43,924 nucleotides of DNA, taken from positions 1-43,924 of the forward strand of contig CALVJN010000012.1 in NCBI GenBank assembly GCA_944332205.1. The letters are read 5' to 3'. Positions 1 through 38,564 of the stretch are shown here, in pieces. The notes under the pieces were generated by a model. The model had not been told where the DNA came from, did not search any database, and was given only the letters and a program-made list of their open reading frames with translations. Numbering within the stretch: position 1 is the stretch's first letter; every line of letters starts with the position of its first letter. The position numbers and the translations under genes are program-made. The DNA comes from an uncultured Bacilli bacterium. Lineage in GTDB: Bacteria > Bacillota_I > Bacilli_A > RF39 > UBA660.

Positions 1-954
1 TTTGGAACAACCAATACAAGTGATAGTGTAGAAGGAGAATGTACAACACCTAAAGTATCAGGAGAAAGTGGAAACTGTGAAGTAGGAGATTATATGACAC
101 ATCCAGCTTTCTTAGCCTTTAATACAACAGGGATATGGGTAGGAAAGTTTGAAACAGGATATGATGGTGCGGCAAGTAAAAGTGGAGCTAACAAGAATAC
201 AACCGAAGTGAATAAAGTAATAGTAAAACCAAATGTCTACAGTTGGAGAAATATACAAGTAGCAAATGCTTTTACAGTAAGTTATAATTACAAACGAAAA
301 TTAGAATCTCATATGATGAAGAATACAGAATGGGGAGCAGTAGCGTATTTATCACATTCTATATACGGAATAAATTATGAAATAAGGAAAAATAATAATT
401 CTAATTATTTAACTGGATATGCAGCAATAACAGAAAATGGAAGTGATAGTACAACAGATGTTGCAATGTGGAATACAACAACTGGATATTTAGCAAGTAC
501 AACAGGGAATATAACAGGAATATATGATATGTCAGGAGGAGCTGTTGAATATGTAATGGGAGTAATGAAAGATGCAAATGGTAATTTAATGTCAGGGCAG
601 AGTTCTACTTATAATTCAGGTTTTAATGGGACATTAAGCAGTGGAGGAAGTGTTACTAATGGATTAGATTTTCCAAATAGTAAGTATTATGATGTGTATA
701 ATTATAATAAGCTCAGTTATAATTCTTCTAGAAGTAGAAGAATATTAGGAGATGCAACAGGAGAGATGGGACCATTTCAAAGTTTGCAGTCATCATGGTA
801 TAATGATACTGCTTCGTTTGTTTACTCTAGCAACCCTTGGTTCGGCCGTGGGGGCAACTATAGCCTCGGTTCTGGAGCTGGTGCGTTCTCTTTCAACTAC
901 AGCAACGGGCATGCTAGCAGCAGCGTTTCTTTCCGTTTAGTCTTGGGTATATAG
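1..954 (+). CDS. Surface protein, FGE/C-type-lectin-like fold, probable DGR target (5' end outside window)
   Basis: The frame is open from base 1, so the start lies upstream; 317 residues are visible. Seen: a segment reading IWVGKFETGYDG, then NTEWGAVAYLSHS, then GIYDMSGGAVEYV, which resembles the YDMxGNVxEW core of formylglycine-generating-enzyme-like C-type lectin folds. The C-terminus (NPWFGRGGNYSLGSGAGAF, ending SFRLVLGI) resembles DGR variable proteins, which use this fold to display hypervariable residues. The body uses A-ending codons (ACA, GGA, ATA, GTA), unlike T-ending clpC next door. The last ~130 bases are abruptly GC-rich with many NNC codons. By analogy with related surface proteins the missing N-terminus may be a prepilin-type signal, but this cannot be seen. 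Ligand unknown. No reverse transcriptase or template repeat was found in the window. Confidence 0.75.
   Translation, partial: FGTTNTSDSVEGECTTPKVSGESGNCEVGDYMTHPAFLAFNTTGIWVGKFETGYDGAASKSGANKNTTEVNKVIVKPNVYSWRNIQVANAFTVSYNYKRKLESHMMKNTEWGAVAYLSHSIYGINYEIRKNNNSNYLTGYAAITENGSDSTTDVAMWNTTTGYLASTTGNITGIYDMSGGAVEYVMGVMKDANGNLMSGQSSTYNSGFNGTLSSGGSVTNGLDFPNSKYYDVYNYNKLSYNSSRSRRILGDATGEMGPFQSLQSSWYNDTASFVYSSNPWFGRGGNYSLGSGAGAFSFNYSNGHASSSVSFRLVLGI
820..951 (+). other. Putative DGR variable region
   Basis: The 3' end of the first gene changes composition sharply from AT-rich, A3-biased codons to a GC-rich stretch rich in AGC, AAC, TTC, GGC, CTC, GCT and CAT codons. This is expected when AAC/AAT codons of a template repeat are copied with adenine mutagenesis into a target. 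The encoded pattern RGG-4 residues-G-2 residues-AG-1 residue-F, ending SFRLVL, matches the usual layout of DGR lectin-fold variable regions. The template was not found here, so boundaries are approximate. Confidence 0.6.
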
Positions 955-976
955 TTTTTCCACTTGTGGAAAAACT
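953..976 (+). repeat. Perfect 11-bp inverted repeat just after the variable region
   Basis: Arms AGTTTTTCCAC (953-963) and GTGGAAAAACT (966-976) are perfectly complementary around a 2-base loop and begin inside the stop codon. No U-tract follows, so this is not a usual terminator. A hairpin or cruciform just 3' of the variable region is a known recognition element for DGR retrohoming in well-studied phage DGRs. That role is inferred. Confidence 0.65.
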
Positions 977-1055
977 TAACTCTGATCTTTGTGGTTTAAT
1001 AAATAATCGAAGCATATAGATAGACAGATTTAATAGTAAAAGAGTATTTTAATTA

Positions 1056-1090
1056 TGCTGATTGCTCCCTTTTTGGCAATCGGCATTTTT
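1056..1090 (+). terminator. Rho-independent terminator of the DGR-target-like gene
   Basis: Arms TGCTGATTGC and GCAATCGGCA form a 10-bp stem with one G-U pair, followed by five T and a T-rich stretch. The right half recurs at 39344-39364 without its left arm. The rest of 977-1202 holds no gene; a TATAAT at 1137-1142 is a possible clpC -10 without a clear -35. Confidence 0.8.
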
Positions 1091-1202
1091 AAAATTTTTT
1101 AATTTAAATTAAAAAATTTTAATACGTTAAATTTATTATAATTTGTATAGATTTAGAAATTTACTTTCATTATATACATATGATGTTATGAAAGGAGATT
1201 AT

Positions 1203-3473
1203 ATGTTCTCAAGGTTTAGTGAAGAAGTAAGAAAGGTTTTACTTGGTGCTAAAAAAGAAATGCAATCTTTAAAACATTCATATGTTGGTACAGAGCATTT
1301 AGTTCTTTCTATTTTAAAAAAAAATAATATTATTAGTGATAGATTTAAGAGTTATGGTATAAGTTATGATACTTTTAAAAAAGAAGTTATAAATGTTATG
1401 GGTATTGGAAATAAAGAAAATGAATGGTTTATTTATACTCCTTTGTTAAAGAAAGTAATTGAAAATTCTATTATTCTTAGTAAAGAAAAAAATAGTAAGG
1501 AAGTTACTTTGGATATTTTGTTTTTATCTCTTATTGAAGAAGGAGAAGGAGTTGCTTATAGATTATTTATTAAATTAGGTGTTGATGTTGATTCTTTTTT
1601 TGAAGACTTAAATCAAAATAAGAGATTTAAAAAGCAAAAGAATAAATTAATTATTGATGAATTTGGCATTAATTTAAATAAAAAAGTAATTGATGATGAA
1701 ATTGATCCTGTAATTGGTCGTGAAGATGAAGTTAATCGTGTTATTGAAATACTTTGTCGTAGAACTAAAAATAATCCATTATTAATTGGTGATGCAGGAG
1801 TTGGTAAAACGGCAATTGTCGAAGAATTAGCAAGAAGAATTGTAAATGGTAATGTTCCTATAAAATTACAAAACAAAAGAATTATTTCTGTTTCTATGGC
1901 AAGTTTAGTATCTGGTACAAAGTATCGTGGTGAATTTGAAGAGAGAATTATAAAAATGTTAAAAGAAGTAGAAGAAGTTAATGATGTTATTATTTTTATA
2001 GATGAGATTCATACTTTAGTTGGTGCTGGTGGTGCAGAAGGTGCTATTGATGCTTCAAATATTTTAAAACCTGCTTTAGCTCGTGGTAAAGTTAATATTA
2101 TTGGGGCAACGACAACTATGGAATATAAAAAGTTTATTGAAGATGATAAAGCATTATCTCGTAGATTTCAAACTGTTGTTATTAATGAACCAGATGATGA
2201 AAAAGTTTATAATATTTTAAAAAAAATAAAGCCTATATATGAAGATTTTCATAATGTAATAATTGAAGATGATATTTTAAGATTAATAATTTCATTATCA
2301 AATAAATATTTATATAATCGAAAACAACCAGATAAATCTATTGATATATTAGATGAAGTTTGTTCTAAAGTATCTGTTATTGAAGACAATATTTCAAAGA
2401 AAAATAATAGTTTTAAGAATTTATTAAAAAATATTAAAAGTTTAAAAAATGATGCTATTATAAATAGCAACTTTGATCAAGCTTTATCTTTAAGAGAAGA
2501 AGAATTAAAATTAGAAAGTAAGATAAATAAATTAGATATTAAAATGATGAAAAATTCTAAAAAAAGAAAAGTTAGTTCTGAAATGGTAGCTGAAGTAATT
2601 AAGTCTAAAAGTAATATTCCAGTATATGAATTGCTTCCATCAGATTCAGTAGTTAAAAATTTAAAAAAATTTTTAGAATCTAAGATTATTGGGCAGAATA
2701 CAGCAATAAATGTTTTATGTAATTATATGAAAAAGGTAATGTTAGGATTTAAATATAATAAAAAACCACTTTCATTTCTTTTCGTTGGTCCTACTGGTGT
2801 TGGTAAAACCTTTTTGGTTAAAGAATTTAATAATTTTTTGTTTGGGGAAGATAACCTTATTCGATTAGATATGAGTGAATTTGGTGAAGAACATTCGATT
2901 AGTAAAATTATTGGATCTCCTCCTGGTTATGTTGGTTATCAAGATAAATCTAGTGTTTTAGAAGATATTAAAGATAAACCTCATTCTGTTTTACTTCTTG
3001 ATGAAATAGAAAAAGCTCATCCAAAAGTTTTAAATTTATTTTTACAAATATTAGATGAGGGAAAGATAAAGGATTCATCTGGTAATATATTTAGATTTGA
3101 TAATAATATTATTATTATGACTTCTAATGCTGGGTGCAATATTAGTAATATTGGTTTTGATAATAATAATTTTTTAGGTAAAGATAAAAATATTCAAAAA
3201 AATTTTTCTTTAGAGTTTATTAATAGAATTGAAAAGATAATTTATTTTAATAAATTGGGTTATGACGATATTAAAAAAATAGTAATTAATGTTTTTGATA
3301 ATGTTAATAAGAAAGTAAATATTAATTATAAATATAATGATGATATTATTGAAAATATTATAAAAGATTCAGAATACAATATTTATGGTGCTAGAAAAAT
3401 TGAAAAAATAATTTTTGATAGAATAGATTCTTATATTGTTGATAAATTTGATAGTAAAGTAGGTATAAAATAA
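1203..3473 (+). CDS. clpC: ATP-dependent Clp protease ATPase subunit ClpC
   Basis: Hsp100/Clp AAA+ unfoldase that feeds substrates to ClpP. It is 756 residues, slightly short for ClpC. Order: N-terminal double Clp-N domain (about 1-145), first AAA domain with Walker A GDAGVGKT and Walker B IIFIDEIH, a short coiled middle domain with the UVR-like stretch FDQALSLREEELKLE typical of ClpC, then a second AAA domain with GPTGVGKT and LLLDEIEKAH and a C-terminal D2-small domain. An IGF near residue 645 could be the ClpP-docking tripeptide. The ATG at 1203 is preferred to the upstream in-frame ATG at 1143 because AAAGGAG sits just before it and the protein then begins MFSRFSEEVRKVL, as in the family. 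No ctsR, mcsA or mcsB is adjacent and no CtsR operator was recognised, unlike Bacillus. Confidence 0.93.
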   Translation: MFSRFSEEVRKVLLGAKKEMQSLKHSYVGTEHLVLSILKKNNIISDRFKSYGISYDTFKKEVINVMGIGNKENEWFIYTPLLKKVIENSIILSKEKNSKEVTLDILFLSLIEEGEGVAYRLFIKLGVDVDSFFEDLNQNKRFKKQKNKLIIDEFGINLNKKVIDDEIDPVIGREDEVNRVIEILCRRTKNNPLLIGDAGVGKTAIVEELARRIVNGNVPIKLQNKRIISVSMASLVSGTKYRGEFEERIIKMLKEVEEVNDVIIFIDEIHTLVGAGGAEGAIDASNILKPALARGKVNIIGATTTMEYKKFIEDDKALSRRFQTVVINEPDDEKVYNILKKIKPIYEDFHNVIIEDDILRLIISLSNKYLYNRKQPDKSIDILDEVCSKVSVIEDNISKKNNSFKNLLKNIKSLKNDAIINSNFDQALSLREEELKLESKINKLDIKMMKNSKKRKVSSEMVAEVIKSKSNIPVYELLPSDSVVKNLKKFLESKIIGQNTAINVLCNYMKKVMLGFKYNKKPLSFLFVGPTGVGKTFLVKEFNNFLFGEDNLIRLDMSEFGEEHSISKIIGSPPGYVGYQDKSSVLEDIKDKPHSVLLLDEIEKAHPKVLNLFLQILDEGKIKDSSGNIFRFDNNIIIMTSNAGCNISNIGFDNNNFLGKDKNIQKNFSLEFINRIEKIIYFNKLGYDDIKKIVINVFDNVNKKVNINYKYNDDIIENIIKDSEYNIYGARKIEKIIFDRIDSYIVDKFDSKVGIK

Positions 3474-3488
3474 TAAAGACTTTATATT

Positions 3489-3513
3489 AAGACTTTAATT
3501 AAAGTCTTTTTTT
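3489..3513 (+). terminator. Terminator of clpC
   Basis: Palindrome AAGACTTTAATTAAAGTCTT (3489-3508) running into seven T. It lies 15 bases after the clpC stop and only a few bases before the prfB -10. Confidence 0.85.
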
Positions 3514-3514
3514 G

Positions 3515-3523
3515 TGATATAAT
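3515..3523 (+). promoter_or_regulatory. Extended -10 promoter for prfB
   Basis: TGATATAAT is a perfect extended -10 (TG-N-TATAAT), starting two bases after the terminator U-tract. No good -35 is visible, as is usual for extended -10 promoters. It leaves a 5' leader of roughly 15 bases. Confidence 0.7.
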
Positions 3524-3544
3524 TTTTATATGATGGAGGTTTAT

Positions 3545-4655
3545 ATGGAACTTTATGAATTAAGAAAAAATGTTGATGATAGTTATATGCGTTTAAAAGA
3601 TTTGTGGAGGTTACTTTGATGTAGACAATAAGAAATCTATTATTAAAGATTTAGAGTTAGAAATGTCATTACCTAATTTTTGGGATGATTCTAAAAAAAG
3701 TTCTGAAGTTATTGAAAAATTAAATTCTTTGAAATCTGTTGTTAATAATATTGAAGATTTGTTGTTTAAAGTTAGTGATATTAAAGATAATCTTAATTCT
3801 CTAGATGATTATGATAATGATTTTTTTAAATTATTAGAGGATGAATATTTAGAAGTATCTTTATCTTTGGAAAAGTTAGAGCTTTTACTTCTTTTAGATG
3901 GAGAGTTTGATAAAAATAGTTGTATTTTAGAAGTTCATTCTGGGGCAGGTGGTACTGAAGCATGTGATTGGGCTATGATGCTTTATAGAATGTATACTAG
4001 ATGGTGTGATAAAAATGGTTATAAGTATACAGTTTTAGATTATCAAGAAGGTGAAGAAGTAGGAATTAAAAGTGTGTCTATTTTAGTTAAAGGATTATAT
4101 GCGTATGGTTATTTAAAATGTGAAAAAGGTATTCACAGGTTAGTTAGACTTTCACCTTTTGATGCTAATAATAAACGTCATACTTCGTTTGCATCTGTTC
4201 TTGTTACACCTGAGTTTAATGATGATGTTACCGTCGAAATTAATGATAAAGATTTAAAGATCGATGTTTATAGATCTAGTGGTTGTGGTGGACAAGGAGT
4301 AAATACAACAGATTCTGCTGTTAGAATAACACATTTGCCTACTAAAATAGTTGTTACTTGTCAAAATGAACGTAGCCAAATTCAAAATAAAGAGCAAGCT
4401 TTAAAAATGTTAAGAAATAAACTTAAGTTATTAGAAATAGAAAGAAAAAATAATGAATTGAAAGAAATAAAAGGTGAACAAAAGAATATTGAATTTGGAT
4501 CACAAATAAGAAGTTATGTTATGCATCCGTATTCAATGGTTAAAGATCATAGAACTTTATATGAAACAAGCAATGTTTTAAAAGTATTAGATGGAGATAT
4601 TAATGAATTTATTGAGTGTAAGCTTAAGGAGGATAAAAATGAAAAAAAAGAGTAG
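3545..4655 (+). CDS. prfB: Peptide chain release factor 2, programmed +1 frameshift (join 3545..3616, 3618..4655)
   Basis: RF2 releases nascent chains at UGA and UAA. The zero frame starts at ATG 3545 behind GGAGG and ends after 24 codons at TGA 3617-3619. A +1 shift at CTT-TGA continues into the long frame (next codon GAT at 3618), giving about 369 residues, the normal RF2 length. The catalytic GGQ is present in SGCGGQGVNTTDS, and the stop-recognition tripeptide SPF is in RLVRLSPFDANN, which separates RF2 from RF1. The 3' end overlaps the next gene by 17 bases, so the two are probably co-transcribed. Expression is autoregulated: low RF2 lets the ribosome pause at UGA and shift. Confidence 0.95.
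3605..3620 (+). promoter_or_regulatory. prfB programmed +1 frameshift site
   Basis: TGGAGGTTACTTTGATG contains an SD-like GGAGG (3606-3610), then TTA, then the slippery CTT followed by in-frame TGA. This matches the conserved RF2 element with internal SD, CUU and UGA. The Leu tRNA slips from CTT to TTT and translation resumes at GAT. Confidence 0.93.
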
Positions 4656-5511
4656 CAATAAAAAAAATATAGGTATATTAAAAAAGTACAAGATTATTAA
4701 TATTTTAGAATTATTGTTAGGACTTACTTTGTTTTCAGTTTCTTTTAATTTCTTTTTACTTCCTAATGATTTAGTTTTTGGTGGAGTAAGTGGTTTATCA
4801 ATTATTTTTAATCATTTATTTAATATTGATCCTTCGATATTTGTACTTATTGTTTCAATTGGTCTTTTGTTTGTTAGCTTAATATTTTTAGGAAAAGAAA
4901 AAACAGCAGGTTCTGTGTTAGGTTCTTTACTTCTTCCATTATTTTTAAAAATTACAGAGTTGTTTACTGTTTATTTTTCGTTTGAGACAACCGATATATT
5001 TTTAGCAGCTATTTTTGGTGGAGTATTGTCTGGTGTAGGTATTGGTCTTGTTTATAAAGCTGGTTTTACTACTGGTGGAACAGACATTATTAATCAAATT
5101 TTGAACAAGTATATGAAAATAAGTTTAGGAAAATGTATGTTGTTTTCTGATGGTTTTATTGTAGGGTGTAGTATTTTTGTTTTTGGTATTGTCAAGTTTA
5201 TGTATGCAGTTGTTGTTCTTTATATTATGAGTGTTCTTACAGATAGAGTTTTATTAGGTATTAGTAAATCAAAAGCTTTTTATATTGTTACAGATAAGGT
5301 TAGCGAAGTAAAAAAGTTTGTTTTACTTACAATGGGGCATGGTGTTACTGTTTTTGATGCTATAGGAGGTTTTTCAAAGGAAGATCAGAAGGTTTTGTTT
5401 TGTGTCGTTCCAACTCGTGAGTATTTTAGATTAAAAGAAGGTATTCATGAAATAGATAATGATGCTTTCTTTGTAGTAACAGACGCTTATGAGGTGTTTG
5501 GCGGTGAATAG
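4639..5511 (+). CDS. YitT family membrane protein (first copy)
   Basis: 290-residue multi-pass membrane protein with two DUF161-like halves and a C-terminal DUF2179-like soluble domain (about 205-290, with HGVTVFDAIGGFSKED). Five or six hydrophobic helices span about 20-195, with the family's Gly-rich turns (FGGVSGLSIIF and AGFTTGGTDIINQIL). Function of the family is not established. ATG 4639 is chosen because AAGGAGG ends six bases before it; the upstream in-frame ATG at 4591 has no such site. It overlaps prfB and the following paralog, so it sits in one operon with them. Confidence 0.82.
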   Translation: MKKKSSNKKNIGILKKYKIINILELLLGLTLFSVSFNFFLLPNDLVFGGVSGLSIIFNHLFNIDPSIFVLIVSIGLLFVSLIFLGKEKTAGSVLGSLLLPLFLKITELFTVYFSFETTDIFLAAIFGGVLSGVGIGLVYKAGFTTGGTDIINQILNKYMKISLGKCMLFSDGFIVGCSIFVFGIVKFMYAVVVLYIMSVLTDRVLLGISKSKAFYIVTDKVSEVKKFVLLTMGHGVTVFDAIGGFSKEDQKVLFCVVPTREYFRLKEGIHEIDNDAFFVVTDAYEVFGGE

Positions 5512-6382
5512 AAATAATATTAAGAAAATATTTAAAGAGTTGAAAAAAGAAAGATTTTTTTATAATTATTCTGTTCTTATTGTTACTTTATTTGTGGCTG
5601 CTATTAATTATAATTTATTTTTAAGACCTTTAAAGATAGTAGCTGGTGGTACTAATGGATTGTCAATTATTTTTGAGAAAATTTTTTCTATTGAACCATC
5701 AATATTTATTTTTATTTTTTCTTTTGTTGTTTTAGTTGTTGGTTTTTTTACTTTAGGTATTAAAGCAACTTCTAGCGCTTTAGCAGCTGCATTTATATAT
5801 CCATTATTTGTTAATGTTACTGAAAATTTAGATTATTTTGTTAGTATTGGTAGAGAACATATTATAATTTCGGCAATTTTTTCGGGAATTATAACAGGGT
5901 GGGTATCAGGATTAATTTGTAAAGTTAATTTAAGTCAAGGAGGAATAATTTTAATTGATCAAATTTTATATGAAAAGTTTAGAATTTCAATTAGTAAGTC
6001 AAATTTTATAATCAATTTTATTATTGTGATTGCTGGTGGGTATTATTTTGGTATTACTAATCTTCTTTGTGCTGTGATTTTGTTATTTATAAATAGTCTT
6101 GTTATAGATAAGGTTATGTTAGGTGTCTCTGATAATAAGTTTTTTTATATTATGACTAGTAAAGAAGAAGAAGTTAAAAATTTTATTTTAAATGATTTGA
6201 AAAATGGTGTTACAATTTTTAATGTTAAGAGTGGTCGTGATGATGATGAAAAGTCAATTTTTATGGTAAGTGTTGCCAATGAGTTGTATTACAAAGTTAC
6301 TAAAAAGATTAAAACAATTGATAATAAAGCCTTTTTTATTGTTACTGATTCTTATGAAGTAATTGGTGGTCACAATAATTAG
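5504..6382 (+). CDS. YitT family membrane protein (second copy)
   Basis: 292 residues, same architecture as the preceding gene: five or six membrane helices and a C-terminal DUF2179-like domain (NGVTIFNVKSGRDDDEKS). It is a diverged tandem paralog, with TTGGTD of the first copy replaced by SQGGIILIDQIL. GTG at 5504 is chosen: GAGGTG lies seven bases upstream and the start overlaps the stop of the first copy by eight bases, implying translational coupling. An upstream ATG at 5489 would read through that ribosome-binding site. The pair may form a hetero-oligomer; this is inference. Confidence 0.78.
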   Translation: MNRNNIKKIFKELKKERFFYNYSVLIVTLFVAAINYNLFLRPLKIVAGGTNGLSIIFEKIFSIEPSIFIFIFSFVVLVVGFFTLGIKATSSALAAAFIYPLFVNVTENLDYFVSIGREHIIISAIFSGIITGWVSGLICKVNLSQGGIILIDQILYEKFRISISKSNFIINFIIVIAGGYYFGITNLLCAVILLFINSLVIDKVMLGVSDNKFFYIMTSKEEEVKNFILNDLKNGVTIFNVKSGRDDDEKSIFMVSVANELYYKVTKKIKTIDNKAFFIVTDSYEVIGGHNN

Positions 6383-6399
6383 GTTTTTTTGTCGAAATA

Positions 6400-6408
6400 T
6401 GTTATAAT
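6400..6408 (+). promoter_or_regulatory. Extended -10 promoter for ftsE
   Basis: TGTTATAAT fits TG-N-TATAAT. It lies 24 bases upstream of the ftsE ATG, in the 49-base gap after the second YitT gene. A run of eight T (6383-6390) precedes it but has no clear hairpin, so partial readthrough is possible. Confidence 0.6.
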
Positions 6409-6431
6409 GTATTTTATAAAGTAGAGGTGAT

Positions 6432-7136
6432 ATGTTAGTGGAATTAATTTCATTAAAAGGAGTTAGCAAAAAATATAAAAATGGCGTTAATGCTATTTAT
6501 GATTTAGATTTAAAAATTAAGAAGGGCGAGTTTGTTTTTATTATTGGTGGTTCTGGTAGTGGAAAATCTACTCTTATAAAGATGCTTTATAGAGAAGAAA
6601 AACCTACTAAAGGTGAACTTATTATAGGTGGAAAAAATGTTGCTAAATTAAGAAATAGTAAGGTTTATAAATTAAGAAGAAAACTTGGTATTGTCTTTCA
6701 AGATTATAGATTGTTACCAAAGCTTACTGTTTATGAAAATGTTGCATTTGCTTTGGAAGTAATTGGTGAAAAGACTAGTGATATTAGGATTAAAACATTA
6801 AAAGCTTTAGAATTGGTTGGGCTTAAAGGAAAGACTAGAAATTATCCAGATGAACTTTCTGGTGGAGAACAACAGCGTGTGGCAATAGCAAGGGCAATTG
6901 TTAATAATCCTAAATTATTAATTTGTGATGAGCCAACTGGTAATTTGGATCCACTTATGAGTGAAGAAATTGTCAATGTTTTGGATGACATTAATAAGAG
7001 TATGGGTACAACAGTTATAATGGCTACTCATGATCGTGATATTGTTAATAAATTTAAAAAAAGAGTTATTGCTATTAAGGATGGAAGAATTGTAAAAGAC
7101 TATGCAGAAGGGAAGTACGATAATGAAGCTATTTAG
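6432..7136 (+). CDS. ftsE: Cell division ATP-binding protein FtsE
   Basis: ABC ATPase of the FtsEX complex, which couples ATP hydrolysis in the cytoplasm to activation of a peptidoglycan hydrolase outside the membrane. 234 residues with Walker A GGSGSGKST, Q-loop VFQDYRLLPKLTVYENV, signature LSGGEQQRVAIARA, Walker B LLICDEPTGNLD and the switch histidine in ATHDRD. AGAGGTGAT precedes ATG 6432. The end overlaps ftsX by 14 bases, and ftsX in turn overlaps an M23 peptidase gene, so the operon holds the ATPase, its permease and the likely hydrolase. Confidence 0.95.
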   Translation: MLVELISLKGVSKKYKNGVNAIYDLDLKIKKGEFVFIIGGSGSGKSTLIKMLYREEKPTKGELIIGGKNVAKLRNSKVYKLRRKLGIVFQDYRLLPKLTVYENVAFALEVIGEKTSDIRIKTLKALELVGLKGKTRNYPDELSGGEQQRVAIARAIVNNPKLLICDEPTGNLDPLMSEEIVNVLDDINKSMGTTVIMATHDRDIVNKFKKRVIAIKDGRIVKDYAEGKYDNEAI

Positions 7137-8028
7137 AATGTTTAAATGTGGTGTGCGAGATGCTTTTAAAAGTGTGTATCGAAATTTTTCGTTATCTATT
7201 GCTTCTATTTCGTGTATTAGTATTACACTTTTAGTTGTTGCAGTTGCTTTAGTTTTATCCTTTAATGTAAAGAATTTTTCTAAAGAAATTGAAAGTGATG
7301 TAACTATGGTTGTATTTCTTAATTTAGGAGTTACTAATGAAGAAATAACCGAATTTGAATCCACAATATCAAATATGGAAAACATTTTGCCAAACTGGGA
7401 AGCACAAAGTCCAAGTGAGAGGAAAGAAATGCTACTAGCCGAAGATGATTTTTGGAATTCAGTTGGGTCTTTAATAGATAATGAAGAAGAAATTTTCCAT
7501 TATAGTTATAAGATAAAAGTTAAAGATATTAATTTAATTAATGAAACAGCAAAAGAACTTGAAAATCTTCCTGTTGTTCAAGTTGTTAATTATGGAGAAG
7601 GTATAGTTGAACAGATGGTTACTGTTTTTGATTTAGTTGAGAAAATAGCATTTTTAATCGTTATAATTTTGGTTATTGTAACGGTATTCTTGATTGTTAA
7701 TACAATAAAGTTAACTATTTTTTCACGAAGAAGAGAAATTTCTATTATGCGTGTTGTTGGTGCTAGTAACTGGACTATAAAGACTCCATTTATTATTGAA
7801 GGTTTTGTAATTGGACTTTTAGGATCTATTGTACCAATAATTTTAACTGTTTATGGTTATACAAGTTTTTATAATAGTTTGGATGATGGTCATTTATTTT
7901 CTTCATTGATTGAGCTTTTACCACCACAACCTTTTGTATTCTTTGTTTCACTTGCAATTGTTGTAATAGGAGTAGTTGTTGGTATGTTTGGTAGTGGTCG
8001 TGCAGTAAGGAAGTATTTAAAAGTATGA
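7123..8028 (+). CDS. ftsX: Cell division protein FtsX
   Basis: Permease-like partner of FtsE, 301 residues. One membrane helix near residues 20-45, a large extracellular loop (about 46-165) that in the family contacts the hydrolase, then three C-terminal helices with the FtsX-fold segment TIFSRRREISIMRVVGAS. The ATG at 7123 lies inside ftsE; an upstream in-frame ATG at 7102 would add seven residues with no family match. The stop overlaps the next start in ATGA at 8025. Confidence 0.94.
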   Translation: MKLFRMFKCGVRDAFKSVYRNFSLSIASISCISITLLVVAVALVLSFNVKNFSKEIESDVTMVVFLNLGVTNEEITEFESTISNMENILPNWEAQSPSERKEMLLAEDDFWNSVGSLIDNEEEIFHYSYKIKVKDINLINETAKELENLPVVQVVNYGEGIVEQMVTVFDLVEKIAFLIVIILVIVTVFLIVNTIKLTIFSRRREISIMRVVGASNWTIKTPFIIEGFVIGLLGSIVPIILTVYGYTSFYNSLDDGHLFSSLIELLPPQPFVFFVSLAIVVIGVVVGMFGSGRAVRKYLKV

Positions 8029-9245
8029 AGAAGAAAGTATTTGGTTTAACATTAATTTTTGCTATTATTTCATCATGGTTTGCACCATTGCAAGGACATG
8101 CAATTACTTTAGGAGAGTATGAACAAAAATTAGCTGAGTATAAAAAAGAAGCTCAAGAAAATAAAGATTCATTAAATTTGACCCAACAGCAAATTAATTC
8201 TGCTAATAATCAAATTAAACAACTAGAAGCTGAAAGAAGTCAATTAATTGAAGAAGTAAAAAAATTAAATGCTGAGATAGAAGATTATAATAATAAAATA
8301 AAAGATAAGTTAGAGGAATCAAAGCAAATTATTGAGTATTTACAATTGTCTAGTGGCGAAAATGTTTATTTAGAATATGTTTTTAAAGCTGAATCTACTT
8401 CAGATTTAATTTATAGATCTGCAGTTGTTAAAGAACTTGTAGACTATAATAATAGAGCAATTGATGAGATGAAACAGATTATTGAAGATAATAAAGATAG
8501 GCAAGTAGAAATAGAAAAGAGAAAAGTTGCTATTTCTAACAATGAGGAATTACTTACTGATAAATTAGTAAGTTTAGGTGAAGAAAAAAATGTTCTTGAT
8601 TTAGCTGGAATAAAAGTTGAAGAGCAAATAAAAACTTATGAAGACATGGTTGCTCAATATAAAAAGTTAGGTTGTAAAAGTAGTGATGTTATTGGAGTTG
8701 ATTGTGCAGTTAATGGCGATGCAGGAATATTTAGAAGGCCTACTAAGACTGGTTATATAACTCAAGAAGCTTATGTAAGTTATGATTGGAAAGGAAATGT
8801 TTCTTATATTCATAGAGCAGTAGATATTGGTAGTAGAAATAGTAGTAGTGAAAAAATATATCCTGTTGCTAATGGTAGAATAGTGTTTAAAGGCTATGAT
8901 AGTAATGGTGCTTTAATTGTCGCAATAGAGCATTATGTTGCATCGCAAAATACTTGGTATACTTCTATGTATGCACATTTGAGCTCTTTTGCTCCTAACA
9001 TTAGTTTAGGTGATTATGTTACAAGTGATCAATATATTGGTTATATGGGTGATAGTGGATATTCGTTTGGAGTTCATCTTCATTTAGAAATTTTTCCGTG
9101 TAGAATGATTTTAGGTGATCCTAATTGTTCTAGTCTTGGTAATTTTATTGAATATGGTAAGAAATTAATGCGAAATGGTTATGAAGGGCCTAGAAAATTA
9201 ATTTATTTTCCAAATGGCTTATATAATTCTTGGAATTCTCGTTAA
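8025..9245 (+). CDS. Secreted coiled-coil M23 peptidase, probable FtsEX-controlled hydrolase
   Basis: 406 residues. A signal peptide (KKK then a hydrophobic stretch, likely cut after QGHA near residue 26) is followed by a long Lys/Glu/Gln-rich coiled coil (about 30-210) as in EnvC and PcsB, then an M23/LytM domain (about 245-380). The zinc ligands are intact: HRAVD near residue 263 and HLHLE near 352. The domain therefore looks catalytic, unlike the degenerate LytM of E. coli EnvC. Overlap with ftsX (ATGA) argues that its coiled coil is held by FtsX and that it cleaves septal peptidoglycan peptide cross-links. In Bacillus and Streptococcus this slot is filled by NlpC/P60 or CHAP enzymes. Confidence 0.88.
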   Translation: MKKKVFGLTLIFAIISSWFAPLQGHAITLGEYEQKLAEYKKEAQENKDSLNLTQQQINSANNQIKQLEAERSQLIEEVKKLNAEIEDYNNKIKDKLEESKQIIEYLQLSSGENVYLEYVFKAESTSDLIYRSAVVKELVDYNNRAIDEMKQIIEDNKDRQVEIEKRKVAISNNEELLTDKLVSLGEEKNVLDLAGIKVEEQIKTYEDMVAQYKKLGCKSSDVIGVDCAVNGDAGIFRRPTKTGYITQEAYVSYDWKGNVSYIHRAVDIGSRNSSSEKIYPVANGRIVFKGYDSNGALIVAIEHYVASQNTWYTSMYAHLSSFAPNISLGDYVTSDQYIGYMGDSGYSFGVHLHLEIFPCRMILGDPNCSSLGNFIEYGKKLMRNGYEGPRKLIYFPNGLYNSWNSR

Positions 9246-36997: not shown

Positions 36998-37133
36998 TTA
37001 GAAATTGTGATTATAATTAAAAATATTTTTAATGTAAAAATTTATTATTTAAATAATCTTTATAAAAGTATTGTAAAAATAATAAAAGTATTATAAACTT
37101 TAACTATAAATAATAATACTAGGAGTGAATTAT

Positions 37134-38564
37134 ATGAAGAATAAAAAAGGCTTTACCTTAATAGAGCTATTAGCAGTAATAATAATATTAGGAATATTAA
37201 TGATAATAGCAATACCAGCAGTAACAGAGTATATATCATCATCAAGAAAGAGTGCCTATATAACAACAGCATCAAGATATATAGATGGAGTAAGAAATAA
37301 GATAAATGCAGCAGAAATACCAGTCTATGATAAAGAAGCAACTTATTATATACCAGGAAGTTGTGTATCAATGGAAAAAGGAGGAAAAAGTCCATATGGA
37401 GACTGGAAAGAGTATTATGTAGTAGTAACATATGATGGAACAGGATATGACTATTATTGGACAAGTAGAGATGAAACAAATACTGGAATATATTTAACAT
37501 ATCAAGATTTATTAGATGTTGATAGAATAGAGAATAATGTAACAAGTATTTCTACAAATATCGGAGTAGGAGATAGAGAAAAGATATTATTATTAAAAGA
37601 TAGTTGTAGTATAAATGATGCAGAAGAATTAATAGCAACAAGTAGTATACCAGAAAAAGGAACAAGTGATGGTGTGATTGAAGATAGTGAAACGGGAAAT
37701 AATGAATTTGAAGATAATGATAGTAATGTTATAATAGCAACAGATACAAGCTGTTTTAACTTTGATTCTTCAAAAGGAACTATAGTTGGCTATTATTGTC
37801 GCAATCGTATGGGAATTAATTATATCATATATGTAGACAAGTGTGTAAGTTATTTTTCAGATATGGGAGCTCCTGAGGATGAAGCAAGATTATATTGTAC
37901 AGGTGATTCTAGCTTTGAGTTTTCTTTAAAAGAAGATCTTTTATCTGGAAGTTTATCATTAGAATATATTAATCAAATGGAAGATAATAATGTAATAAAA
38001 ATTGAAGAAAAAATAATTAAAGATGTAGTGATACCTGAAAAAATTGATGGAGTTACAGTTACAAGAATAGGTTCACGCGCATTTTTAGGTAGTAATTTAT
38101 ATACAATAGAAATACCTGAAACAGTTGAATATATTGAATCATCAGCTTTTTCGCGCAATAATTTATTATATAATATTGTCAATAAAACGGGAAGAAGCTT
38201 TAATTGGAATACTATTTTTGAAAATGGTTCTTCAGATTATGATAATAATTTTATCGTTGGTGATTATAAAGCATATAATCGTTATGATGTATTAGAATTT
38301 TTGATAAAAATAACAACTGTTCCAATGAGTAAAATTGATTTTGATAAAATGATTTTGGTTGAAGATATGGACTTTGTTAGTAAATCAGTAACTCTTAATA
38401 ATTCAATGGGATATGATATATATTATAATAATTTATATAGTTCTGATGATTGGCAAAAATTTATTGATGGAAGTAAAGTGGAAGGAACTCCTGTTTTGTT
38501 AAAAATTTTAAAAGATGATAATATTTTATTTATAGGGGCTGTAAATAAAATGTATGTAGAATAA
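37134..38564 (+). CDS. Prepilin-type surface protein with BspA-like repeats
   Basis: 476 residues. N-terminal class III signal KNKKGFTLIELLAVIIILGI, with G|FTLIE processing and the Glu5 typical of type IV pilins and pseudopilins, then a hydrophobic alpha1 helix. Middle region (about 35-200) has paired cysteines. The C-terminal part carries BspA/LRR_5-type repeats (VVIPEKIDGVTVTRIGSRAF, TIEIPETVEYIESSAFSRN). Codon use is mosaic: the first ~200 codons favour A-ending triplets like the gene at 1-954; the rest favour T-ending triplets like core genes. No pilin peptidase or assembly gene is in the window. ATG 37134 is preferred (AGGAG eight bases upstream) to GTG 37125, which is inside the SD. Confidence 0.85.
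   Translation: MKNKKGFTLIELLAVIIILGILMIIAIPAVTEYISSSRKSAYITTASRYIDGVRNKINAAEIPVYDKEATYYIPGSCVSMEKGGKSPYGDWKEYYVVVTYDGTGYDYYWTSRDETNTGIYLTYQDLLDVDRIENNVTSISTNIGVGDREKILLLKDSCSINDAEELIATSSIPEKGTSDGVIEDSETGNNEFEDNDSNVIIATDTSCFNFDSSKGTIVGYYCRNRMGINYIIYVDKCVSYFSDMGAPEDEARLYCTGDSSFEFSLKEDLLSGSLSLEYINQMEDNNVIKIEEKIIKDVVIPEKIDGVTVTRIGSRAFLGSNLYTIEIPETVEYIESSAFSRNNLLYNIVNKTGRSFNWNTIFENGSSDYDNNFIVGDYKAYNRYDVLEFLIKITTVPMSKIDFDKMILVEDMDFVSKSVTLNNSMGYDIYYNNLYSSDDWQKFIDGSKVEGTPVLLKILKDDNILFIGAVNKMYVE

Follow-up and report, generated by a model that had tools for sequence, protein, structure and literature searches.

The window (the whole stretch of DNA that was analysed, 43,924 nt, contig C12 of its genome) opens with the 3' portion of an open frame whose 5' end lies beyond the contig start (positions 1–954, + strand, 317 amino acids). 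This frame is the 5'-truncated target gene of a diversity-generating retroelement (DGR) and encodes the FGE/C-type-lectin-like head found at the C-terminus of a prepilin-type family; its own prepilin part would have to lie on another contig. What is present is very likely the last third or more of the gene. Over its first 77 nt the window is identical to the interior of a full-length paralogue on contig C6, a likely reason why the assembly breaks at this point. The ends of contigs C6 and C19 were considered as the missing 5' half of the gene; neither overlaps the window, and no join is claimed.

The end of the gene is unlike the rest of it in composition. GC content is 0.331 over positions 1–813 and 0.523 over 820–951 (0.51 over 814–951), against 0.286 for the whole window. 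The segment up to about position 813 is AT-rich with A-ending codons, and third codon positions go from 44% A and 4% C to 7% A and 43% C at the gene end. Only 22 of 43,792 stretches of 132 nt are equally GC-rich, and those listed all start at about 794–830; seemingly no other such segment exists in the 43.9 kb outside the end of the target gene. An earlier reading of the window, made from the sequence alone, had described a GC and codon switch in the last ~130 bp, an 11-bp inverted repeat beginning at the stop codon, and the absence of a reverse transcriptase (RT) and template from the window. All of these points held when re-checked: the switch by GC and third-position counts, the repeat as described below, and the absence in that the sole RVT_1 match and the sole template-RNA match of the genome are both on another contig, C3.

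The variable region and its template

The host genome (G000) is 1.25 Mb in 34 contigs and 95% complete. A DNA search of it with window positions 1–1000 returned, besides related genes, a short lone copy of 140 nt at C3:11250–11389, which is the template repeat (TR). The variable region (VR) core of the window gene (816–935, + strand) differs from the TR at 12 of 120 nt. All 12 differences fall on the 31 TR adenines (p = 1.3e-8), all 12 change the amino acid, and 0 of the 89 non-adenine positions differ. Over 123 aligned nt there are 14 differences, 12 of them at TR adenines; the remaining two are the edge positions 815 and 936. The VR of the target gene that lies next to the TR on C3 (the cis target) shows the same pattern, with 13 of 13 differences at adenines. 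Mismatches spread over the four TR bases were not seen; they are confined to adenines. This mismatch pattern shows RT copying with random bases opposite adenines.

The sequence-only reading had proposed that the gene is a DGR target, either remote (in trans) or part of a cassette upstream, to be checked by looking in the genome for a near-copy differing at template adenines and for a DGR-type RT. That check was run and both were found; the target identity is supported rather than refuted, and the remote option is the right one. One small correction concerns the extent of the variable stretch, since the A-to-N part is limited to 816–935 and positions 936–951 depart from the TR.

The DGR cassette

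The sole RT (RVT_1) of the genome lies 1.1 kb from the TR on C3. The cassette (locus L022) runs in one direction and comprises the cis target gene (652 amino acids), the TR, and genes for a MutS-I-like protein (127 amino acids), Avd (118 amino acids) and the RT (342 amino acids). The start and stop codons of the last three genes overlap or almost touch. The RT has an RYMDD catalytic motif and the motif IPIGNYTSQ, and matches PHROG 1423 (reverse transcriptase) with 344 bits; DGR RTs have GxxxSQ. It has no match above cut-off to the NCBIfam DGR RT equivalog. Avd matches PF22296 with 64.5 bits (cut-off 40) and PHROG 3206, and scores 68.7 bits with the NCBIfam equivalog, slightly below the cut-off of 80. 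The MutS-I-like protein matches MutS domain I (PF01624, E 1.4e-8). A covariance model of the template RNA (R1) finds one copy only in the genome, after the C3 TR; an Rfam search of the TR region gave no family match.

An origin of the DGR in a prophage was considered and rejected because the C3 neighbours are chromosomal genes. Viral contigs contained no relatives of the window protein and no exact match to the pattern of the VR/TR end, and the best phage RTs are only 35–41% identical to the C3 RT.

The MutS-I-like gene (L022:4663–5046, - strand, between the TR and Avd) is found at about 40 related loci. The mismatch-wedge motif of MutS is F-x-E. In the MutS-I-like protein its Phe is kept and its Glu lost (FYI or FYL instead), and a KCGFP motif is conserved and appears invariant. 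It is possible that this protein acts on cDNA/VR mismatches or protects them from repair. A MutS-like DGR accessory gene is reported to feature in a 2018 survey in Nucleic Acids Research.

Among 84,980 species genomes scanned there were 251 relatives of the RT; the best 80 were kept and come mostly from MAGs of gut Bacilli and Clostridia. Of those with more than about 50% identity, almost every one shows the order MutS_I-Avd-RT, and at more than 30 related loci the mismatches of the TR/VR pair lie nearly all at A.

The hairpin and the 3' boundary

A perfect 11-bp inverted repeat (a potential hairpin or cruciform, without assigned strand) occupies positions 953–976, with arms AGTTTTTCCAC-TT-GTGGAAAAACT, and starts within the TAG stop codon (952–954). 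Perfect arms of at least 11 bp with a loop of 2–8 nt occur at four places only in the 43.9 kb. As a hairpin 3' of the VR it has an AT-rich stem of 10–11 bp and the loop CTTG, not GRNA. The rule reported for phage DGRs is a hairpin directly after the VR with a stem of 7–10 bp and a 4-nt GRNA loop (PMC3240598). Across the targets of the genome the hairpin is intact after C12 (the window gene), C3 (one G-T pair), C20b and C23, degenerate after C6 and C31, and absent after C20a and C9; C12, C3 and C20b are also the least drifted targets. Stems with unrelated letters lie in the same place after the cis VRs of other DGRs (L061, ATAGTCGCAAAGCGACTAT; L068, CCGTATAGTGCTTGCACTATACGG; L087, CTAAAATTTCGGAAATTTTAG), which speaks for the structure.

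Between the VR core and the stop codon, positions 936–951 (+ strand) lie where the IMH would be. Here the window reads TTTAGTCTTGGGTATA and the TR CTTGGTGTTGTGCATA; homology to the TR stops at 935, whereas the cis target agrees with the TR through GTTGTGC at the 3' end. The outline of this segment is common to the remote targets, and that it acts as IMH is inferred from its position only. DGR homing normally requires a similar IMH and IMH*. We infer that another IMH-like end serves the remote targets, for which homing at full rate has not been established.

Two other features lie 3' of the target gene. At window positions 1053–1122 there is a GC-containing hairpin (ATGCTGATTGC...GGCAATCGGCAT) followed by a T run, which resembles a terminator, and there is also a 16-bp AT palindrome. 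The GC-containing hairpin is found again after the C3 target.

Other targets and inferred homing in trans

The DNA search gave seven genes related to the window gene, making eight targets in all. Differences from the TR at adenines number 12 of 15 in C20b, 14 of 20 in C6, 12 of 22 in C20a, 9 of 19 in C23, 17 of 32 in C31 (15 non-A) and 15 of 39 in C9 (24 non-A). By these counts the targets form a gradient from fresh to drifted, and the window gene stands at the fresh end.

The body of the window gene is 78% identical to that of the cis target over window positions 97–636. Plain inheritance of the VR with the gene would therefore be expected to leave about one fifth of the 89 non-A positions different. 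The chance of finding none at 78% identity is about 0.78^89, or near 2e-10. Because the body has drifted by about 22% yet 0 of 89 non-A positions differ, the VR was renewed from the TR after the genes diverged. Homing in trans into the window gene is thus strongly inferred from the sequence. The physical process is itself an inference, and ongoing activity has not been observed, as there is one genome and no reads.

Compared with the only TR found, the VRs of C23 and C20a have several non-A changes in common (C70T, C107T, T116C and C122T). These look like writing from a second template that has been lost or was not assembled, which remains a possibility only.

Among the 11 other genomes of the genus only one (G009) has an RT, and it has its own TR/VR pair with 16 of 16 differences at A. 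The RT is present in 2 of 12 genomes and the prepilin family in 12 of 12; in this sample the DGR is patchy and the pilins are not. The other 11 genomes contain no R1 copies, and among 98 genomes of the family (97 genera) R1 was found under strict filters in the host genome only. Another member of the genus (G010) has six related gene pieces, two of which carry VRs (L220 and L221) near the TR of the host genome, with an identical hairpin. Neither RT nor TR was found in that assembly, which is 87% complete, and these VRs could be orphan targets or reflect an assembly gap.

A lectin-like head on a probable prepilin-type stalk

The FGE/C-type-lectin-like domain of the window gene extends over positions 88–951 (+ strand), with approximate limits that rest on a weak Pfam match and a family profile. 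The Pfam FGE-sulfatase match to residues 135–219 is below cut-off (E 0.027). A profile of the family, built from 24 sequences, matches 5VF4, the Thermus aquaticus DGR variable protein TaqVP (PMC6328139), with E 3.7e-8, and its N-terminal part matches solved pilins. The domain shares 49% identity with the cis target of a further DGR (L087), and the VR sits at the C-terminus of the target. An AlphaFold model of the window protein was too poor (pLDDT 51) and gave no Foldseek match under E 1; it was excluded from the evidence. The domain assignment of the sequence-only reading is therefore held by the family profile to 5VF4, with Pfam alone being weak and the fold not shown by a model. On the strength of the profile we regard the head as a divergent FGE-type C-type lectin.

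Five of the targets have intact 5' ends, and four of these (C3, C6, C23 and C31) begin with a type IV prepilin motif, GFTLIELLAVIIILGIL. The motif of the C3 target scores 25.5 bits with TIGR02532 (cut-off 16.3) and is also over the cut-off of PF07963; in C6, C23 and C31 it is visible by sequence. The fifth, C20a, has a different hydrophobic N-terminus without the motif. The remaining targets (C12, C9 and C20b) are cut by contig ends. Because its 5' end is missing, the prepilin start of the window gene is only inferred from its paralogues. Since the head sits on a prepilin-like stalk in the full-length paralogues, a minor pilin or pseudopilin is inferred as the most likely product.

Genes for pilus assembly are present in the genome. 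A T2SSE ATPase (PilB, 415 bits) lies on C15 beside two prepilin-like ORFs, and T2SSF (PilC) and a prepilin peptidase lie on C3, about 15 kb from the cassette. These features suggest that the targets form a variable binding repertoire displayed on pili, the binding function being inferred. The window contains a further prepilin-type gene (37125–38561, + strand) with the same N-terminal stalk family and a BspA-type leucine-rich-repeat head. The stalk looks like a platform for interchangeable heads.

Proposed mechanism and alternative explanations

The explanation that we consider very likely is that the one DGR cassette of the genome, on C3, rewrites the VR of the window gene in trans, although ongoing activity has not been observed. 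Transcription of the TR RNA would take place in the interval that separates the cis target from the accessory genes. Covariation shows a conserved stem in the 3' part of this RNA, and by analogy with Bordetella phage BPP-1 the stem should recruit RT and Avd. The RT copies the TR RNA with random bases opposite adenines, as the mismatch pattern shows, and the cDNA would replace the VR of any gene with a matching sequence and hairpin, the window gene included; this physical process is inferred. In this scheme only the ligand-binding face of the C-type-lectin-like head would change, and the product would display a variable binding surface on a gut bacterium. Points against this explanation are the departure from the TR end of the 16 nt beyond the core, where the cis target matches, and the hairpin loop, which is CTTG and not of the phage GRNA type, as well as the missing 5' end of the window gene, the different N-terminus of C20a and the poor structural model.

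The window gene might have arisen by duplication of a cis target: mutagenesis would have happened in cis, and the copy would then have reached its present place without any homing in trans. Duplication certainly happened, as all targets are paralogues with 71–86% DNA identity. Drift after such a move would, however, alter both the body and the VR, and the body has drifted by about 22% from the cis target while the non-A positions of the VR have not changed at all. Three other remote targets are also near the TR outside A sites (C20b, C6) or intermediate (C23), and this alternative is very improbable. It is less hard to imagine that the VR is a relic, in a former target now beyond the reach of homing. 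Positions 936–951 have diverged from the TR IMH*, and C9 and C31 are clearly drifting, with the non-A differences given above. Against this, the window gene has no non-A core differences and an intact hairpin, which place it among the freshest targets, behind the cis target only, and we consider a relic unlikely. Finally, the GC-rich, codon-shifted end might come from diversifying selection or recombination among paralogues and involve no retroelement. Paralogue families often recombine, and gene conversion could hold non-A positions identical. Neither process places 12 of 12 differences (13 of 13 in the cis target) on the adenines of a non-coding template near an RT, and this explanation is all but excluded. 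We therefore retain homing in trans from the C3 cassette.

Template arrays in related genomes

Four gut Bacilli genomes (G013, G014, G015 and G017) have about 10–18 template-RNA units in place of a single TR. These arrays lie beside DGR RTs at L064 positions 2464–5700 (G015) and L068 positions 2921–8424 (G017), and also at L063 (G014) and L062 (G013). A row of units of about 300 nt comes after the RT in both L064 and L068. Every unit has a TR core, the stem TACTATGA...TCATAGA, a small hairpin with UUUC, ACACATGAA, and a stem with a T run that resembles a terminator. Compensatory changes occur at 5 of 9 pairs of the first stem (22 such cells, versus 6.1 in shuffles) and at 5 of 10 pairs of the terminator stem. 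The covarying stem and terminator are established in these two genomes, G015 and G017, which were the two examined closely. The R1 model finds 15 units in G017, 11 in G015, 8 in G013 and 7 in G014; by sequence there are 18 TR cores in G017 and at least 10 in G015. Mean pairwise identity among units is 0.71–0.73. The possibility that the units are silent target pseudogenes was rejected, since they have no gene body, carry covarying stems and terminators (G015, G017) and show no in-frame stop in the target frame (0 of 28). A protein-coding gene lies inside the L068 array (6811–8160, between the units at 6406 and 8197), and its product, judged by eye, we take to be AAA-type ATPase-like.

The multi-TR genomes have roughly ten or more VR genes each. 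Of the 18 units of G017, one fits the cis VR with 10 differences at A and none at the other 104 positions; the two share a 6-nt insertion found in no other unit. In G013, one of the 10 units fits the cis VR with 4 differences at A and none at the other 103 positions, whereas the remaining units give 20–30 non-A differences. Because each of these VRs matches a single unit, at least two array units are proven by sequence to be in use, and others probably are. For two further targets of G017 the match to other units extends over 52 nt (11 A changes) and 41 nt (9 A changes), where control templates taken from the other genome reach 28 and 22. Apart from the cis VRs, most VRs fit no single unit (at least 15 non-A differences); partial runs to units are seen in two targets of G017 and one of G014. 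Drift, mosaic homing or unassembled units may account for the unmatched VRs.

A bolder reading, which we consider likely, is that the DGR acting on the window gene comes from a lineage whose single template became, in at least four relatives, a template library of about 10–18 units with diverged cores (mean pairwise identity about 0.7); in the two genomes studied closely, every unit would have a stem of its own for RT recruitment, and a terminator. Any unit could be written into the targets, and template choice (cassette switching, as in antigenic variation) would be combined with adenine hypermutation over at least ten pilin-displayed heads.

Most DGR targets of cellular genomes are predictions, and for few of them is it clear how they are displayed. 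In this case a gut genome of 1.25 Mb spends a retroelement on about eight paralogous heads. The majority of these sit on prepilin stalks, suggesting variable pilus-borne binding. The template arrays would alter the textbook picture of one template per DGR and give a natural route to switch whole variable cassettes and then randomise them. They also provide a large natural set of covarying template RNAs for studies of recognition by RT and Avd.

Comparison with known systems

A remote DGR target is in itself of a known kind, as multiple remote FGE targets have been described (PMC4891356, PMC10907252). What is new is the display of the repertoire on prepilins and, in related genomes, the arrays of templates. 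Beyond a remark linking DUF1566 DGR targets to putative pilin structures (PMC6642488), no pilin-fused DGR targets of this kind were found in the open-access literature searched, nor was any description of long template arrays; the main text of a global DGR survey (PMC8144416) mentions neither pilins nor template arrays. This novelty is provisional because subscription papers and preprints were outside the search.

The DGR of Treponema denticola (TvpA and remote targets, PMC4891356), for which homing in trans has been proposed, is also chromosomal, host-associated and without a prophage. It too has one core locus and several remote FGE/C-type-lectin targets, and its targets also occur in strains without the core, comparable to the RT-less genomes here. 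It differs in its accessory HRDC protein, where the cassette described here has Avd and a MutS-I-like protein, and in its targets, which are mostly lipoproteins and not prepilin-fused. Its strains as a rule carry a single TR, in contrast to the arrays of the relatives. The prototype, Bordetella phage BPP-1 (PMC3240598, PMC12875486), shares the TR, the VR at the 3' end, Avd, the RT, the hairpin overlapping the stop codon and a structured RNA after the TR. BPP-1 has a phage tail fibre as its single cis target, a GC-rich hairpin stem with a GRNA loop (AT-rich with a CTTG loop in the window), and no described MutS-I-like gene. TaqVP (PDB 5VF4, PMC6328139) is by profile the best solved relative of the variable head; it is a single-domain prophage protein without a pilin part.

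The DGRs of Thiohalocapsa PB-PSB1 (PMC10907252) likewise have several targets per genome, with trans diversification backed by metagenomes. They comprise nine loci of four classes that diversify conflict-system sensors, as opposed to the surface pilins here. In one survey about 28.6% of DGRs have several VRs, most with one TR, and Pseudomonas costantinii, with 6 TRs, was called atypical and has few A-to-N changes (PMC6642488). The DGR of Stenotrophomonas sp. SKA14 in that survey likewise has multiple TRs and targets, with six VRs spread over different ORFs; its two TRs compare with about 10–18 template-RNA units in the relatives described here.
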